This document shows positions 15,245 to 46,505 of a stretch of 64,000 nucleotides of DNA, in pieces. The stretch is from the NCBI GenBank assembly GCA_944388965.1, contig CALXKL010000004.1, positions 1 to 64,000 of the forward strand. The letters are read 5' to 3'. Position 1 is the first letter of the stretch; each line of letters opens with the position of its first letter. Source of the DNA: an uncultured Spirochaetales bacterium (lineage in GTDB: Bacteria > Spirochaetota > Spirochaetia > Sphaerochaetales > Sphaerochaetaceae). Below the pieces are notes generated by a model. It did not search any database and had not been told where the DNA came from. It saw only the letters and a list, made by a program, of their open reading frames with translations. Made by a program: the position numbers and the translations under genes.

Positions 15245-15511
15245 TCAGCTCAGAGGTCTTATCTTTGGAAGCTGTTTCATCTGGACAGCATTGTTCCACG
15301 CCTCGTAAAGCTCCTCCTCGTGCAATGTCAGCCAGGCCGCTACAAGCTTATACTGTTTCTCTGGCAAGACACCTGCCAGAACCTCTCCATCGATTCCCAC
15401 GGATGCCTCATACTCCCCATACTCGACATGGACATGGGGTTTATTATGTTTACCTCCTGCCTCATAGAGCATCTTTATGACTATTCCAAAGAATCTGCTT
15501 ATTTCAGGCAT
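15245..15511 (-). CDS. DUF4160-domain protein
   Basis: An 88-residue protein with the full DUF4160 signature: PEISRFFGIVIKMLYEAGGKH broken as ISRFFGIVIKM and HNKPHVHVEYGEYEASV, then KQYKLVAAWLTLHEEELYEAW. It is the first gene of a pair with the DUF2442 gene 11 bases downstream. The start at 15511 is preferred because CAGGAG lies 6 bases upstream; 15517 would place the site against the start codon. Proposed as half of a toxin-antitoxin-like module from genomic context. Confidence 0.8.
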   Translation of the reverse strand: MPEISRFFGIVIKMLYEAGGKHNKPHVHVEYGEYEASVGIDGEVLAGVLPEKQYKLVAAWLTLHEEELYEAWNNAVQMKQLPKIRPLS

Positions 15512-15620
15512 TGCCATCTCCTGAGCAAAGGATAACATGAAACAGAACAAAGTACATTCTTTCACAATGTCACACACAATCAGTTCTCTGCCATTTCCAC
15601 AATCCAAGTGAGTATGAAAA

Positions 15621-15690
15621 GATTTTCCATGGCAGGAATTTGGCAGGAAGAACCTAAAACAATAGCGACAACTGTCACAAAACAGAAATC
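15621..15690. repeat. Degenerate repeat, copy C
   Basis: About 70 bases beginning GATTTTCC and containing GGAATTTGG, AACCT, AATAGC and ACTG-CA blocks, colinear with copy D at 19141-19212. It lies upstream of the DUF4160 gene. The rest of 15512-15826 is AT-rich with no gene seen. Confidence 0.55.
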
Positions 15691-15780
15691 AGCTTTCATC
15701 ATTCCCGCTCAATAATTTCATTGTCTCATGCACAATCTATGGTGTTATAAAGTCTCAAATACCCACTATATATCTTCTGT

Positions 15781-15829
15781 TTCACTTGTCTCAGACGTTT
15801 CAAGATTTTTTGGGGTCAAATCCGGGTCA
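15781..15829. repeat. Degenerate repeat, copy B
   Basis: 49 bases matching copy A (14818-14865). It overlaps the stop codon of the antitoxin gene. One minus-strand frame through it reads DPDLTPKNLETSETSET before a stop, like the tail of a lost reading frame. Confidence 0.5.
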
Positions 15830-16201
15830 GATCGAGTAATCACGCCGCGCTTCCTGCAGCATAAGTACAAGATCGGGTTTCTGAGATATAAGATAAATCA
15901 GATTCTTTGCGGTAGGTGAAGGCGTACTTCGTCCTGTTTCCCAGGATTCTACAGTTCTTCTGGAAACCCCGAGCACATTTGCAAAAGCCTTCTGCGTCAT
16001 ATCCAAAGATTCACGTTCCGCTTTCACATTCACATCAGGAAGACTTCTCTTTCTGGCAATGGTCTCTGCACTTGCTTTCCCCTTCTCATATGCAAGAGCC
16101 TCTTCAAGACCTTCCTTTATACCATTGAAGAAATCGACATCTTTGAAGTTTTTCTCCATTTCCTCCAGGCTGTATTTCGATTTGAAAACATGATCGCTCA
16201 T
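15827..16201 (-). CDS. XRE-family antitoxin (HigA-like)
   Basis: 124 residues. An N-terminal toxin-binding part is followed by a Cro/C1 helix-turn-helix (about 60-115: RESLDMTQKAFANVLGVSR then RTVESWETGRSTPSPTA). The order toxin then antitoxin and the sequence match HigBA/RelE-XRE modules. The ATG at 16201 overlaps the toxin stop (ATGA) and has GGAGGAG upstream inside the toxin gene; a GTG at 16207 is a less likely start. It is expected to neutralise the toxin and repress the operon through the inverted repeat at 16542-16560. Confidence 0.85.
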   Translation of the reverse strand: MSDHVFKSKYSLEEMEKNFKDVDFFNGIKEGLEEALAYEKGKASAETIARKRSLPDVNVKAERESLDMTQKAFANVLGVSRRTVESWETGRSTPSPTAKNLIYLISQKPDLVLMLQEARRDYSI

Positions 16202-16482
16202 ATCCACTCCTCCATTATGGTCTCGGCCATCCGCCGAAGAAACTTACGCTGTTCGGCAGTCAGATCCTCCTGCACATTTTTCGGATAAGCAAACAGCAGA
16301 TAGAGTCTCCTCTTCTCCAACACGTCAATATATATTACCCGTCCTCCTCCGCTCTTCCCTCGACCTTCCAGTCTTATCCTCAGTTTTCTTATACCTGCCA
16401 GACCGTCTATGACAACGCCCTTGCGAGGATTCTCAAGCAGGATGTTTTCCAGCTCATGCAGCTCATCATCACCCAATCCCAT
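16198..16482 (-). CDS. RelE/HigB-type toxin, probably longer than the ATG-initiated frame
   Basis: 94 residues from the ATG at 16482. Family features are DDELHELENILLENP, RKLRIRLEGRGKSGGGRVIYI, the LLFAYPKNVQEDLTAEQRK core, and a C-terminal helix. HigB2-type toxins degrade mRNA on the ribosome. Relatives have about 15 more N-terminal residues. Here the same frame stays open upstream and reads IHIHRTLHRFWKA, which fits the family. GAGGAAAG lies just before an ATT at 16519-16521, so initiation at ATT, giving 107 residues, is plausible. Otherwise the toxin is N-terminally truncated. Confidence 0.8.
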   Translation of the reverse strand: MGLGDDELHELENILLENPRKGVVIDGLAGIRKLRIRLEGRGKSGGGRVIYIDVLEKRRLYLLFAYPKNVQEDLTAEQRKFLRRMAETIMEEWI

Positions 16483-16541
16483 CGCTTTCCAGAACCTGTG
16501 AAGGGTTCTGTGTATATGAATTCTCTTTCCTCACTTTTAAA

Positions 16542-16560
16542 TATACGGTTTTATCGTATA
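16542..16560. promoter_or_regulatory. Inverted repeat, probable toxin-antitoxin operator
   Basis: TATACGgttttatCGTATA, a 6-7-6 inverted repeat, lies about 20 bases upstream of the extended toxin start. AT-rich promoter-like sequence surrounds it. HigA-type antitoxins bind such repeats. Confidence 0.55.
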
Positions 16561-16689
16561 AGATAACCATAATGAATCATCCACACGCTTAAGATGTGGC
16601 TATTCCGGAGTGTTCCTTCTGCCCTGATTTACCTGCTCAGGTACGGTTTTTCTGCGCACTCGGATGTGCGTTGTATCCACACCCTGTAA

Positions 16690-17331
16690 TCAGCACCCAT
16701 TGATTTCCCTCATTGTCTTCGAGGCCCATTCAAGAAGCATGAATGCATCACCTTCTGTACTTGGATTCCGGGCTTCGAGAATCGTCTTCTCCTCTTCACC
16801 GACAACGGTGGCGAGCTCTCTGAATGCGGATACATAGACACCTGTGAGAAGATAATGCTTCATCCTTATCGTGAATCTTGCGCTCTTATAAAGCTCAGGA
16901 AGAATCGACCAGTTTCTAGCATGAAGTATGTTGTGGGAGGATGCATGATGGATTGCACACGCGCCCTGCAGCACAGCTCTTCTGATATCATCCTCTGTCA
17001 TCGCGGGACAAAGCTCTGCAAGATCTCCATGGACAGGCCTTGTATCGAGAATCAGCTGTGTCCTGTCTGCACCATCCCATGCTCCCAGCTCCTCCATGGA
17101 TGAGACAAATCCACAGAGGATATCCTTTTCGGGAAGAGTGTCGATATATGCTCTGTACTTCAGCAGTTCGTCTTTCCCGCAATGCCGTAGGATCATCACG
17201 GGGTCGATGTCGCTTGTCTCCTTTGCCTCTCCCCTTGCCCAACTGCCCTGAAGTCCCAGAAACAGAAGGTCATCACCGAAGAGGCGAAGAAGATCCTCCT
17301 TGAAAGATTCCATGAATGCGTCTATGTCCAT
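16690..17331 (-). CDS. Nucleotidyltransferase-domain protein (pol-beta/ANT-like)
   Basis: 213 residues. The N-terminal nucleotidyltransferase motif GSWARGEAKETSDIDPVMIL (about 29-48) carries the G-S and D-x-D residues of the pol-beta superfamily, and a helical C-terminal half follows. The architecture resembles aminoglycoside nucleotidyltransferases and standalone toxin-like nucleotidyltransferases; the substrate cannot be assigned. No HEPN partner gene lies next to it. The start at 17331 has GGAGGGG upstream. It belongs to the AT-richer accessory island; the 16561-16689 gap holds only short inverted repeats. Confidence 0.75.
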   Translation of the reverse strand: MDIDAFMESFKEDLLRLFGDDLLFLGLQGSWARGEAKETSDIDPVMILRHCGKDELLKYRAYIDTLPEKDILCGFVSSMEELGAWDGADRTQLILDTRPVHGDLAELCPAMTEDDIRRAVLQGACAIHHASSHNILHARNWSILPELYKSARFTIRMKHYLLTGVYVSAFRELATVVGEEEKTILEARNPSTEGDAFMLLEWASKTMREINGC

Positions 17332-41410: not shown

Positions 41411-41478
41411 AGCGGAGTAGAAGCTTTACAATATAGAGAAAAGGGGTTGTTGAGAAAGCTTAGGCCTTCGAGATAGAA

Positions 41479-42591
41479 TCATTTCCGCCTTCCATGAATC
41501 GATTTGTTGCCGAAATATTTCGTCTCCCATTCAGGATCCTCTTCCTTTCCATACTCGGAAATTCTGCAATCATGAAAGAGATCATCAGCGATTTCCAATA
41601 TAATATCCTTCAGCTCAAGTTCCCTTGACCATTCAGCAGGAATGCCTTCCAGCCCAAGATAAGCCCCTACAATATTCCCTGTTATGGATCCTGTAGAATC
41701 GCTATCACCATCGTGGTTCACGGCCGTTATTATCGCCTTGGTGAAATCGTTGCTATACCGAATAGAACAGAAGATCGCGATAGCCAGAGCCTCTTCAGCA
41801 ACCCACCCTCTACCAAGCATGGCAATGGCTTTCCTGTCATCTATCCTCCTGTCATATGCAAGATCTACAGCATCCCTGACTATGTCGAGGAAGCAGTCGA
41901 TAGCTTTCTCATCATAGTTCTGGTTTCTGATTGCCGTCCGCATGGCGGCAACGGCCTCCTCGACAGAACAACCGTGGTGAACAATGAGAACGATCATATG
42001 CGTAAGAGCCGCAGCTGGAATGTATCCAAGAGGATGACCGTGTGTAAGCGCAGCGACTTGCGCACCTATATGGTCTGCCGTATCCAAATCATATTCTCTT
42101 CCAAAATAGAGTCCGACAGGAGCAACCCGCATGACACCCCCACATCTCTTACTGTTGTTGATTGGATTCTCAACGGTTCCACACTCCTCCGACGCAAGGG
42201 CGCTCAGGCATGTATTTCCCGGCGCCCGACAAGAGAACAGCTGTGGGACATCATCAAGCCATGAGTAATGATAACCTTCAAGGGGATATGCTTTTGTCTG
42301 CGTCCTATACCAGTCCTTATAGCTGTAGCGGACATAGTCCCAAGGGGCAGCAGAGATACCACGCATGCTTGCCCGCGTGATTCCAAGCAGCAGTCCGGTC
42401 GCGGTGAACAGCGTCATCTGCGTATCGTCCGATATCTCTGCAATACCATCCTTCAGCTCATATGATGTTATGCCGGCTTCTCCGTATTCCCTGATTATCT
42501 CCCCAAGACTCATGAATTCCACGGGATAACCCAGAGCATCCCCTGCAGCTCCGCCTATAAGACAACCTCTATATCTATCCACCAGTTCCAT
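41479..42591 (-). CDS. ADP-ribosylglycohydrolase (DraG/ARH-like)
   Basis: A 370-residue enzyme expected to remove ADP-ribose from a modified target. The dinuclear metal motifs are complete: CLIGGAAGDALGYPVEF, SDDTQM (54-59) and DGDSDSTGSITGNIVGA near 290. A variable central region with a cysteine/glycine loop lies between them. The -10 box TATACT ends 6 bases before the ATG and no ribosome site is visible. It is divergent from a DUF262-DUF1524 gene, and both are more AT-rich than the neighbours, so the pair looks like an acquired unit. Confidence 0.88.
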   Translation of the reverse strand: MELVDRYRGCLIGGAAGDALGYPVEFMSLGEIIREYGEAGITSYELKDGIAEISDDTQMTLFTATGLLLGITRASMRGISAAPWDYVRYSYKDWYRTQTKAYPLEGYHYSWLDDVPQLFSCRAPGNTCLSALASEECGTVENPINNSKRCGGVMRVAPVGLYFGREYDLDTADHIGAQVAALTHGHPLGYIPAAALTHMIVLIVHHGCSVEEAVAAMRTAIRNQNYDEKAIDCFLDIVRDAVDLAYDRRIDDRKAIAMLGRGWVAEEALAIAIFCSIRYSNDFTKAIITAVNHDGDSDSTGSITGNIVGAYLGLEGIPAEWSRELELKDIILEIADDLFHDCRISEYGKEEDPEWETKYFGNKSIHGRRK

Positions 42592-42597
42592 ATAAAC

Positions 42598-42625
42598 AGT
42601 ATACTACATCAGCATAATGCTGATG
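42598..42625. promoter_or_regulatory. Divergent promoter region with 19-bp perfect palindrome
   Basis: CATCAGCATAATGCTGATG (42607-42625, 9-1-9) lies in the 48-base gap. It covers the region just upstream of the minus-strand -10 TATACT (42603-42598) and contains a plus-strand CATAAT (42613-42618). It is probably an operator controlling both genes; no regulator gene is adjacent. Confidence 0.55.
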
Positions 42626-42639
42626 CATGGAGGGTACTG

Positions 42640-44490
42640 ATGGCAAAGAACATAGAGCCTCAGCTGTCTGCAATCGGGAAATACCTTAATATCGATGAGG
42701 ATACAATATTCGTCATACCGGAGTACCAGAGAGCCTACTCATGGACAACCGACAACTGCGACAAGCTCTGGCAAGACATACTGGATTACGCAGAGACAAA
42801 CAGCAAGGATAACTATTTTTTCGGAACCGTAATCGTAAACTGCCAAGATAACGACACAAGGCTTGCACTGATTGACGGTCAGCAGAGGACTACGACATTC
42901 TACCTTCTCTTCAAAGCACTTCTTATGAGAATCAATGAGAGAATTCTCAAGATGGCGGATGACGAGGATTCCATCCAGCTTCGCCGTGGTCTACGCGGAA
43001 AAAGGCGTTCTCTGATACAGATCCTATATAAGGCGAAGGAAGATGACATTCCTGAAGAGCCAGACAAAAGGATAGATGCCGCAATATACAAAAAGGTTAA
43101 TCTCATAGAGAACCTTTCAATCAATGAACGATATAAGGATGATTTCAATAAAGTCCTTACATCTTCAAACTTTGAAGAAGCTGAATGCAACACGACCAAG
43201 ATTCCATATAAGCAGAAAGACAACAAGTTCACGAATTTCTTCCGGAACTTCAAGTTCTTCTACAATGAAACTGGTCTGCTTTCCGATTCCCAGATCAACA
43301 ATATTGCAGATAAGATAATCGGAAAATGCGAGGTCATTGAAATCAAGAGCTGGAAGGTCGATCAGGCAATCACGATGTTCAACTCCCTCAATTCCGACGG
43401 CCTTCCACTTTTCGATTCGGATATAATCTCTGCAAAGCTTTATGCAAGCGCAGAAGCGCAGGGACAGGGCAACAGTTTCGCGGAAGAATGGGAAGGGCTC
43501 AAGGAATCGGTTGAAGACCTGGCAGGGCTCGGCATATGTGACCTTGATTCCCTCCTGATGCAGCAGATGTACTATGAGAAGGCAGCCAGGCGGGAAATCA
43601 TAGGAGAATCAGGATCGCCCAATGTGACGATGCCCGGACTCAGAAGGTATTTCACAGAAATAAACAAAGAGCTAATGAAGCATCCCATTGAGCTCTGCAA
43701 TGACATGAACAATATCGCAGGTATTTGGCGGAAGGTATCGGAATATCCTGCCGTGCAGGTACTCTCCAAGTTCAACGACAACTTCAGACTTTTCCTTGCC
43801 GCCTATTTCCATCGCTTCAGGGCAGAGGACATAACGGAGAGGGATACGACCCCGATTGTCGAAGCGATGCTTAGACTCTTCACGATACTGGAACTTGTCG
43901 ACGCCGGCTATTCAAGCAGGTACTTCAAGACATTCCTATTCGGTGAAATAGAGAAGCTTGCAGACCCATCAGTGCCCGTGGCATCAATCATCAGAGACTT
44001 CTCTGACCATATAGGGAAGGCATGGAATCTGGATGATATAAAGGCTCGGATCTCCGATTACGGCAGGAATCCCCTGGTCTTCCTGAATGAGTATCTCGTG
44101 GCGACCGAGGACGGCATTCCTTTCAGCATCGGTTCCAAGTATGATATAGAGCATATAATGCCCTACAGTGGAAGCAATATCCAGGTCATACGGAATGATG
44201 CAGGAATAACCACAAATGATGAATTCTACGACACAGTGAACAAGCTCGGAAACAAGATCATCCTTGAACAGAAGATAAACAGATCAATAGGCAACGAATG
44301 GTTCCGTACGAAGGTATCCATGAGCCTTAAGGACAAGAGCGGTTATGTAGATAGCCGCTATCCAATGGCAAGGCAGCTTGTTCGAAGATACCAAAACGAG
44401 GCAAAGGCATACTGGACAAAGCAGGACATCGAAGAAGCAACCACCAAGATAGGAGAGCGAATCACCGGCTTCATCTTTTCTGCCAACTGA
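42640..44490 (+). CDS. DUF262/DUF1524 protein (GmrSD-like type IV restriction family)
   Basis: 616 residues. The N-terminal DUF262 ParB-like part carries VIPEYQRAYSW (about 24-35) and LIDGQQRTTTFYLL (75-88), the GmrS NTPase signature. The C-terminal DUF1524 part has the HNH-type DIEHIMPYSG (about 505) with later N and H residues, as in GmrD. Fused GmrSD proteins cut DNA with modified cytosines, and related proteins form other phage defences. GGAGGG precedes the ATG. It pairs divergently with an ADP-ribosylglycohydrolase. The gene is AT-richer than the surroundings. Confidence 0.88.
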   Translation: MAKNIEPQLSAIGKYLNIDEDTIFVIPEYQRAYSWTTDNCDKLWQDILDYAETNSKDNYFFGTVIVNCQDNDTRLALIDGQQRTTTFYLLFKALLMRINERILKMADDEDSIQLRRGLRGKRRSLIQILYKAKEDDIPEEPDKRIDAAIYKKVNLIENLSINERYKDDFNKVLTSSNFEEAECNTTKIPYKQKDNKFTNFFRNFKFFYNETGLLSDSQINNIADKIIGKCEVIEIKSWKVDQAITMFNSLNSDGLPLFDSDIISAKLYASAEAQGQGNSFAEEWEGLKESVEDLAGLGICDLDSLLMQQMYYEKAARREIIGESGSPNVTMPGLRRYFTEINKELMKHPIELCNDMNNIAGIWRKVSEYPAVQVLSKFNDNFRLFLAAYFHRFRAEDITERDTTPIVEAMLRLFTILELVDAGYSSRYFKTFLFGEIEKLADPSVPVASIIRDFSDHIGKAWNLDDIKARISDYGRNPLVFLNEYLVATEDGIPFSIGSKYDIEHIMPYSGSNIQVIRNDAGITTNDEFYDTVNKLGNKIILEQKINRSIGNEWFRTKVSMSLKDKSGYVDSRYPMARQLVRRYQNEAKAYWTKQDIEEATTKIGERITGFIFSAN

Positions 44491-44609
44491 TTCCACCACA
44501 ACGTGCAAGTCGACGAGCATGTGACAGGGGATGAATTGAGCAGACGATTAAAAGAGGCTATCGAGAGAGCCCACACTTTCTCGGCAGCCCGTTTTCATTA
44601 TTGCATAGT

Positions 44610-45404
44610 TCAGCCCTGCAAGAGAATCTCTAAAGGAACCGAATACGTGCCGGCATAGTCTCCTCCGGTGATTACACAAATGTTCGTCTGATTTTCCGTG
44701 TAGACCTCGATGTTCGTCATGCCGTCGATGTCTGGAGTGGTCTTGACCTTGTGATAAGACTGGAAATAGTCCAGAGCAGAAGTGCTCGTACTGGTTAATT
44801 CCATAGTTTCATGATACCAGCTGGAATAGACTATCCCATCATACTCCATATCCGTGTATCGAGATGTCGTGCGCCGGGCTCTGTACACTTTCGCTGAAGT
44901 CATGAAAAGCTGATCCAGGGCCGTATCCTGTTCTTCTGACAAAGGTGTCCCTTCGAAACTGTATACGGGAGTGTAACTGGGTAATGCAGGAGGCTCCACC
45001 TCGGGTATCACGGCTTCAATCACACTACCGGCGGGGATGTCCTCAACTGGCGTGTAGATGGTGATCTCGGCCCTCGAGCCCGGCTCTCCGTCATCTTCAG
45101 TGACCCAGGTGGCAAGCAGATTCCCATTTATGTCATGATAGGAAGTCTGAATCAGAGCCGTCGCTTCGTCAGGTGCCTTGCCATGTTCACCATCCCATCG
45201 CGTGATTCGCATGATCTTCAAGGCAAGTTCCCTGTCAATATCAACACCTGCATTGGCAGGTGGATCAGGTATCCGTATGGGATCTTCGAATACGGAAACG
45301 AACGATGCCCCACCGGAGCTGTCACCCGGATGGGGGTTGCCTCCGCTGCATGCAGTTGCGAACACCAACACAAATGCCGACAATACGGCAAGAATCCTCT
45401 TCAT
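44610..45404 (-). CDS. Lipoprotein of unknown function (paralogue 1)
   Basis: 264 residues. The lipoprotein signal MKRILAVLSAFVLVFATAC places the lipidated cysteine at C19. Gly/Pro/Ser-rich linker follows, then a globular region ending with ICVITGGDYAGTYSVPLEIL. It is clearly paralogous to the gene at 45789 (shared EPGS-AEIT, DIPAGSVI, Y-D-Y-G-Y-SWYYE-like blocks, and the same C-terminus). An insertion at about 25-45 is unique to this copy. The start at 45404 has GAGG upstream; the frame to 45494 adds no signal sequence. Probably attached to the outer or inner membrane facing out of the cytoplasm. Confidence 0.75.
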   Translation of the reverse strand: MKRILAVLSAFVLVFATACSGGNPHPGDSSGGASFVSVFEDPIRIPDPPANAGVDIDRELALKIMRITRWDGEHGKAPDEATALIQTSYHDINGNLLATWVTEDDGEPGSRAEITIYTPVEDIPAGSVIEAVIPEVEPPALPSYTPVYSFEGTPLSEEQDTALDQLFMTSAKVYRARRTTSRYTDMEYDGIVYSSWYHETMELTSTSTSALDYFQSYHKVKTTPDIDGMTNIEVYTENQTNICVITGGDYAGTYSVPLEILLQG

Positions 45405-45727
45405 ACCTCTTCCCTCTTGTTGTCCAGTGGATTGTGCATCCCTGGGCAGGTTCAGGTTATTGCAAGAACATGGCCAGCGCAAGGTTTTCTGCAATGGAGG
45501 AACGGAATAGCTTCGATGGAAACAGGGGATAAGGAATCACTGTCATGTAGCGTCTGAAACCCTGGTGGCCCCCGTGGTTACGGCAATGATGTCGACGAGA
45601 GACTCCATTATGCCGTTGAAGGAAAATCTCCCGAACAGCAATGCAAGAATGCGTTGTCGCTTGCTATCCATGTATGGCATCACTACGGAACCATATCGGA
45701 AAAACGCCACATCGATCTTTTCTAAAA

Positions 45728-45755
45728 GGACCGCCTCCCGTCGAAACGGGAGGCG
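45728..45755 (-). terminator. Terminator of the second lipoprotein gene
   Basis: A perfect 10-bp stem (45732-45741 with 45746-45755) with a CGAA tetraloop; on the minus strand TCCTTTT follows. The rest of 45405-45727 is without a convincing gene; a minus-strand frame of about 60 codons there was not recognised. Confidence 0.7.
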
Positions 45756-45788
45756 TCATTTAAAACCACATCGTTTGTGCAGAGAAAC

Positions 45789-46505
45789 TCATCCCATGGA
45801 TGGCCCGAACAGTCCTCCGAGAATCTCCGGCGGAATCGAGTACGTGCCAGCATCGGCACCGCCCTTGATCACACACATGTTGGACTGGCTTCCGAAGTAC
45901 ACCTCGATGCACGTCATTCCATCGAGCGCCGGAGTGGTTGTGACCTTCATGTAGGTCTGATACCGATTGCTGGAGGGATCGTTCTCGTTGATGACCTCAT
46001 AATACCAGCTTTCATATGTATTCCCTTCATACATCATATCTGTGAAGCTGTATGTCGTATGATCCGACCTCTTCTCCGTCACTGACGAACGCATCACTTC
46101 CATAAGTGCATTCGTCTGGTCTTCTGTAAGCTGAGAACCATTGGCGGAATAGCTAGTCGCGCCAAACTCTCCCACAGTTGCCGTTATTACACTTCCTGCC
46201 GGTATGTCCGCGACGGGGACAGCGAGAGTGATCTCCGCTTTCGATCCCGGCTCTCCGTTTCCGTGGCTGACCTGGGTCGCAAGCTGTTTGCCGTTTCCGT
46301 CAAAGTAGGTACTCTCTACCAGATACGTCGCTTCGACATTCTCGTTACCGGACTCATCAGCCCACATCATGATGGACATGACCTTCTGGACGAGTTCTTG
46401 GCTTGCAACACCATCCGTGTTCCCTCCCGGTGCAGGATTGTCCCCACTGCATGCCACGGCGAATATCAGCACCAATGCTGACAACAAAATCAGGATTCTC
46501 TTCAT
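45789..46505 (-). CDS. Lipoprotein of unknown function (paralogue 2)
   Basis: 238 residues with signal and lipobox MKRILILLSALVLIFAVAC (C19), an extended GDNPAPGGNTDG linker and a globular part sharing the C-terminal MCVIKGGADAGTYSIPPEIL pattern with paralogue 1. No known domain. TAAGGAAAA lies directly before the ATG. Its promoter contains a run of eight G between -35 and -10, so expression may vary by slipped-strand change. A strong terminator follows. Confidence 0.75.
   Translation of the reverse strand: MKRILILLSALVLIFAVACSGDNPAPGGNTDGVASQELVQKVMSIMMWADESGNENVEATYLVESTYFDGNGKQLATQVSHGNGEPGSKAEITLAVPVADIPAGSVITATVGEFGATSYSANGSQLTEDQTNALMEVMRSSVTEKRSDHTTYSFTDMMYEGNTYESWYYEVINENDPSSNRYQTYMKVTTTPALDGMTCIEVYFGSQSNMCVIKGGADAGTYSIPPEILGGLFGPSMG

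Follow-up and report, generated by a model that had tools for sequence, protein, structure and literature searches.

We found that an ADP-ribosylglycohydrolase gene and a gene for a single-chain GmrSD-type nuclease form a co-inherited divergent unit, which stands at four unrelated chromosomal sites in spirochaetes and has moved sideways as a pair. Tentatively, and with a confidence somewhat short of even, we explain the pair as a two-gene defence cassette that spreads horizontally; its nuclease would act against modified DNA and its hydrolase against the ADP-ribosylation imposed by an invader. The window examined here is a stretch of 64,000 nucleotides from an uncultured Spirochaetales bacterium of the gut, and its initial annotation, made from the letters alone, had named both genes and described them as diverging from a 48-nt gap. 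These identities and coordinates proved exact, and Pfam and PADLOC support both families.

The same divergent pair occurs in three other spirochaete genomes among the 150 relatives searched, of which two (G001 and G005) belong to the window's genus and one (G086) to another. Across these three cassettes the hydrolase is 77-79% identical to that of the window and the nuclease 82%. The genes that flank the four cassette sites have nothing in common, and the DNA similarity between cassettes (pairwise, about 79%) runs from one end of the gene pair to the other and breaks off there. A close relative, G002, has an empty site, at which a lipoprotein gene comes immediately after the DnaJ-domain gene, and most proteins of the block around this site are 90-99% identical to those of the window. 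The DnaJ-domain gene was part of the ancestral site, and the transferred unit consists of the two genes only. G001 and G005 carry the same syntenic block without the pair, which is located elsewhere in both genomes. A chance junction is ruled out by the recurrence of the cassette, its unrelated flanks, the limits of the similarity and the empty site. The core protein beside the site is 54-58% identical to its homologues in the same genus and 39% identical to that of G086, whereas the similarity of the cassette to its three relatives is about the same in each case, which argues for lateral transfer. Both genes are under purifying selection, with dN/dS values of 0.05-0.19 at a dS of about 0.6-2.4 (rough estimates, partly saturated). 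No ADP-ribosyltransferase gene is present in any of the four cassettes, and DarT, the transferase family searched for genome-wide, is absent from the genome of the window.

The hydrolase gene (41479..42591, minus strand; 370 aa) was assigned to the ARH/DraG fold and PF03747 from Pfam, an AlphaFold model and solved folds. Its reading frame is intact, without internal stops, and the protein matches PF03747 over residues 9-320 (Pfam, E 8.8e-68). The AlphaFold model (pLDDT 92.7, pTM 0.94) has the all-helical ARH fold according to Foldseek, its closest solved folds being MJ1187 (Foldseek E 1.6e-13) and then ARH3, ARH1 and DraG. Both ARH metal-site motifs are present. The N-terminal one, S54-D55-D56-T57 (42421..42432, minus strand), is invariant across 19 relatives, and we take its residues to be metal ligands by analogy with ARH1, ARH3 and DraG; the C-terminal one, H293-DGDSDSTG (41689..41715, minus strand), is invariant across 19 relatives except at D294, so that the run G295-D296-S297-D298-S299-T300 is fully kept. 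By its motifs and its modelled fold, the protein is a catalytically competent-looking ARH enzyme. It scores below the cut-off of both NCBIfam equivalogs, DraG and Tri1.

The nuclease gene (42640..44490, plus strand; 616 aa) encodes GmrSD_N/DUF262 and GmrSD_C/DUF1524 domains, as judged from Pfam, PADLOC, PDB and fold comparisons, and its reading frame is likewise intact and without internal stops. Both Pfam matches (PF03235, E 7.5e-33; PF07510, E 1.4e-12) are over the curated cut-offs, and PADLOC gives matches to HEC-06 (6.9e-39), Orf5 (2.1e-32) and SspE (2.6e-19). By sequence the protein matches DndI in the PDB (9jfl) at 33 bits, and the only significant fold matches of its model (pLDDT 81.7) are SspE, DndI (9jfl) and BrxU. 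The DGQQR nucleotide-pocket motif (residues 79-83; 42874..42888, plus strand) is invariant in 14 relatives, as are QR (Q30R31), FxxxN (F247..N251), the predicted catalytic histidine of the His-Me finger, His505 of IEHIMP (44152..44154, plus strand), and the His-Me residues N538 and N547 that come after it. The roles of the QR, DGQQR, FxxxN and His-Me motifs have been described for the GmrSD-like family, which senses and cuts modified invader DNA (PMC11411939). With both domains in one chain and all of these residues in place, the protein belongs by sequence to this family of phage-defence nucleases.

Within the bacterial family, the hydrolase is the constant element and the nuclease is swapped, with recurrent adjacency to different defence nucleases. 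The hydrolase subfamily, which carries the motif NHDGDSDSTG, occurs at no fewer than 18 spirochaete loci. At one of them (L068) a different GmrSD gene (PADLOC Orf5/HEC-06) lies 44 nt downstream of the hydrolase and is followed by a DUF4268 gene, and at another (L083) a BrxU-like GmrSD gene lies 10 nt upstream and matches HEC-05 at 3.8e-230 (PADLOC), HEC-05 being BrxU (PMC11411939). On a further spirochaete contig (L069:7640-12286) the genes for an EVE-domain McrB-like ATPase, McrC and the hydrolase form one overlapping run. At L125 the hydrolase is preceded, at a distance of about 5 nt, by a DUF4268 protein (PADLOC PDC-S11, 3e-122), at L071 a PD-(D/E)XK protein (PDDEXK_4, PDC-S26) adjoins it on the opposite strand, and fragments of a GmrSD gene and a DUF4268 gene are found at L082. 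No nuclease adjoins about half of the subfamily's hydrolases in spirochaetes (L064, L066, L067, L070, L073, L245, L246 and L248). The 119 genomes of the bacterial family contain 57 DUF262 loci, and a DUF262 gene lies within 4 kb of 5/16 subfamily hydrolases; when the cassette is counted once, 2/13 hydrolases are near DUF262, for which a simple uniform model that ignores the clustering of accessory genes gives a chance probability of about 2e-4. None of the other PF03747 genes among those listed is near a DUF262 gene.

Across bacteria at large, a general link between hydrolase and nuclease is unsupported: on genome contigs, mostly of Firmicutes, the hydrolase has mixed neighbours, and matches to defence models are similarly frequent beside it (at least 11/114) and at 6-10 kb (about 7/97), these being rough counts from family names. 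Among some 75 hydrolase loci of the Firmicutes type, DUF262 genes never stand immediately next to the hydrolase. The initial annotation had reasoned that the junction would be a matter of chance if the two genes were rarely neighbours elsewhere; they do recur together within the bacterial family, but outside it they largely do not. Its suggestion of a defence unit holds as far as the pair is co-inherited and the nuclease is of a phage-defence family, but the link is weak beyond spirochaetes.

The nuclease subfamily is also found in Oscillospirales and Lachnospirales, at 57-61% identity to the window's protein. There it either neighbours R-M genes of type I or type III (L200, L211, L212 and L218), often within the R-M operon itself, or stands alone, in both cases without the hydrolase. 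Two loci are suggestive exceptions, in that they link the nuclease subfamily to other ADP-ribose enzymes. In a member of the Bifidobacteriaceae (L112) a nuclease 59% identical to that of the window is followed immediately downstream by a truncated macrodomain and, after another 1.3 kb, by a hydrolase. On an IMG/VR viral contig (L162:6928-11874) a nuclease of 50% identity is part of a run in one direction, DUF3791-DUF3990-[small ORF]-GmrSD-Macro-vWA, in which DUF3990 is presumably an ADP-ribosyltransferase-like family. Plasmid and phage records yielded distant relatives only. Among the plasmid neighbourhoods looked at, the sole one with both genes near each other is that of L. amylolyticus (L076), where the hydrolase, a PH-domain protein, a Nudix protein and, 1.9 kb on, a distant DUF262 gene share one strand. 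A hydrolase of the same subfamily, 56% identical, adjoins a serine recombinase on another IMG/VR contig (L061:512-3839), which would fit a hydrolase that is mobile on its own.

If the pair is a defence cassette, the DUF262 domain would serve as an NTPase and sensor that recognises modified invader DNA and the DUF1524 His-Me domain would cut that DNA, as knowledge of the family suggests. The hydrolase, in the weakest step of this scheme, would strip ADP-ribose put on host proteins by the invader's ADP-ribosyltransferase. The cassette would then counter a pair of weapons, modified DNA and ADP-ribosylation, that can be combined in a single phage. T4-like phages have both. We direct the hydrolase against invader-made ADP-ribosylation because no coupled transferase accompanies it and because of the view that has been taken of hydrolase-centred systems, in which a hydrolase without a coupled transferase is the pattern used to infer action of this kind (PMC9503650). 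Points against the defence reading are the many spirochaete hydrolases without a nuclease beside them, the mixed surroundings of the hydrolase in Firmicutes, the nuclease subfamily's occurrence in Oscillospirales and Lachnospirales with no hydrolase, and the lack, in the pair, of the hallmark genes of those hydrolase-centred systems. It is possible to extend the scheme to a modular two-arm system of spirochaetes, in which a constant hydrolase would reverse phage ADP-ribosylation and an exchangeable nuclease (GmrSD types, BrxU-like, McrBC, DUF4268 or PD-(D/E)XK) would destroy modified phage DNA, although we regard this wider version as doubtful.

A serious rival, to which we give appreciable but lesser weight than to the defence cassette, is that two independent accessory genes have hitch-hiked together by way of a shared divergent promoter region and gene-gain hot spots, without any joint function. 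GmrSD-like proteins of the HEC-06 and HEC-05 types work alone (PMC11411939), many genomes have the hydrolase without the nuclease and many the nuclease without the hydrolase, and the mixed neighbours of the Firmicutes hydrolase are what such hitch-hiking would lead one to expect. Set against these points are the retention of the exact two-gene unit at four unrelated sites despite strong synonymous divergence, and the independent pairing of the hydrolase with several other defence nucleases. The DNA-directed nature of all of the hydrolase's partners could also be read differently, with the hydrolase acting on ADP-ribosylated or ribosylated nucleic acid, so as to clear host DNA or uncover phage DNA, and the nuclease telling self from non-self. 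The macrodomain fragment and macrodomain gene (ADP-ribose removers) that adjoin the same nuclease subfamily at L112 and at L162, where DUF3990 also lies upstream, fit this idea, but we consider it improbable, given that proteins or small molecules are the substrates of the characterised ARH enzymes (PMC9503650), that ARH1, ARH3 and DraG are among the nearest solved folds, and that the spirochaete loci have no coupled DNA ADP-ribosyltransferase.

It had also been proposed that the nuclease controls itself through ADP-ribosylation, in which case it would be held in check by the modification and switched on by the hydrolase, much as DraT/DraG act on nitrogenase. Reversible ADP-ribosylation has general precedent, and DraG is among the related solved folds. 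A switch of this kind is very unlikely, however, because the four cassettes lack a transferase (and the genome lacks DarT) and because the nuclease partner varies, so that the same switch would have to be common to the unrelated GmrSD, McrBC and DUF4268 nucleases; we therefore set the proposal aside.

Both protein families are known already, as is the published idea that a hydrolase acts together with nucleases against viral ADP-ribosylation: ARG-centric host systems with accessory nucleases have been predicted to counter it (PMC9503650, Viruses 2022). Those systems resemble the present pair in having a hydrolase without a coupled transferase and variable nucleases at its side; their hallmarks are a Nudix/WYL regulator, a phosphatase or a chaperone, all absent from the bare two-gene unit of the window, whose partner is of the GmrSD type, a family absent from the text of that paper. 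Like the nuclease of the window, the type IV enzymes of the GmrSD family (BrxU/HEC-05, HEC-06, Orf5, SspE, DndI and TgvAB) combine the DUF262 motifs with a DUF1524 His-Me domain in a single chain, but the window's protein is distant in sequence from the characterised members, as the bit score to 9jfl indicates, and pairing with a hydrolase, which is the feature of the window, is in no description that we found. DraT/DraG and DarT/DarG are likewise two-gene units that include an enzyme for the removal of ADP-ribose, but together with its cognate transferase, whereas the partner in the window is a DNA nuclease and the unit has no transferase.

The same ARH subfamily, at 45-51% identity, forms part of PARG-ARH-Macro-NADAR fusions in Lachnospiraceae and other gut bacteria, whereas the spirochaete hydrolase stands alone with a nuclease as its partner. 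These fusions (with PARG_cat_microb as the PARG domain) occur in gut Firmicutes and others in varied domain orders, with up to four ADP-ribose-removing domains per protein (L114:779-4054, L120:4919-8083, L117, L119, L122, L126 and L138).

The initial annotation knew of no described system with exactly this pair, and we too found neither the two-gene hydrolase-GmrSD cassette nor the swapping of nucleases in the open literature searched (subscription papers not covered). How hosts answer phage ADP-ribosyltransferases is a matter of predictions that have seen hardly any tests. With a unit that is compact and mobile and has clear active sites, the question can be addressed directly, by comparing the hydrolase plus a type IV nuclease with the nuclease alone, and the swapping of nucleases around a single hydrolase would suggest that the latter is a general helper of modification-dependent restriction.

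The divergent intergenic gap (42592..42639, 48 nt) is 46-49 nt long across the four cassettes. All four gaps have in common AGTATA[C/A]TAC, which contains a TATAcT/TATAaT element, and the GGAGG ribosome-binding site of the nuclease gene (in the window at 42629..42633, plus strand). The shared AGTATA[C/A]TAC, represented in the window by AGTATACT (42598..42605), is compatible with a putative -10 box. The perfect 19-nt palindrome reported initially does exist, as CATCAGCAT-A-ATGCTGATG (42607..42625), with 9-nt arms around one A, and a palindrome of such size arose in 11/20,000 shuffles of the gap; three are present in the window. It is conserved in 0/3 orthologous gaps (L062 included), and a regulatory meaning is therefore unsupported and was rejected. 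Most simply, the palindrome would be an incidental feature of the window's copy. An inverted repeat around the pair (47 nt, 70%; 41438-41484 / 44550-44596) was considered as transposon ends and is treated as chance, since no outer flank is common to the four cassettes.

The AT-rich codon use noted initially was borne out, with a GC3 of 0.48 for the hydrolase and 0.56 for the nuclease vs 0.75-0.80 in most neighbours; the two lipoprotein genes downstream are also low (0.55 and 0.62). These two low-GC, lipoprotein-like genes (44610-46505) are paralogous and match no Pfam family, and the empty site of G002 has only one of them. A further low-GC patch of the window (15245-17331, about 45-46% GC) holds a nucleotidyltransferase gene and small genes that have a toxin-antitoxin look, judged by eye from their translations.
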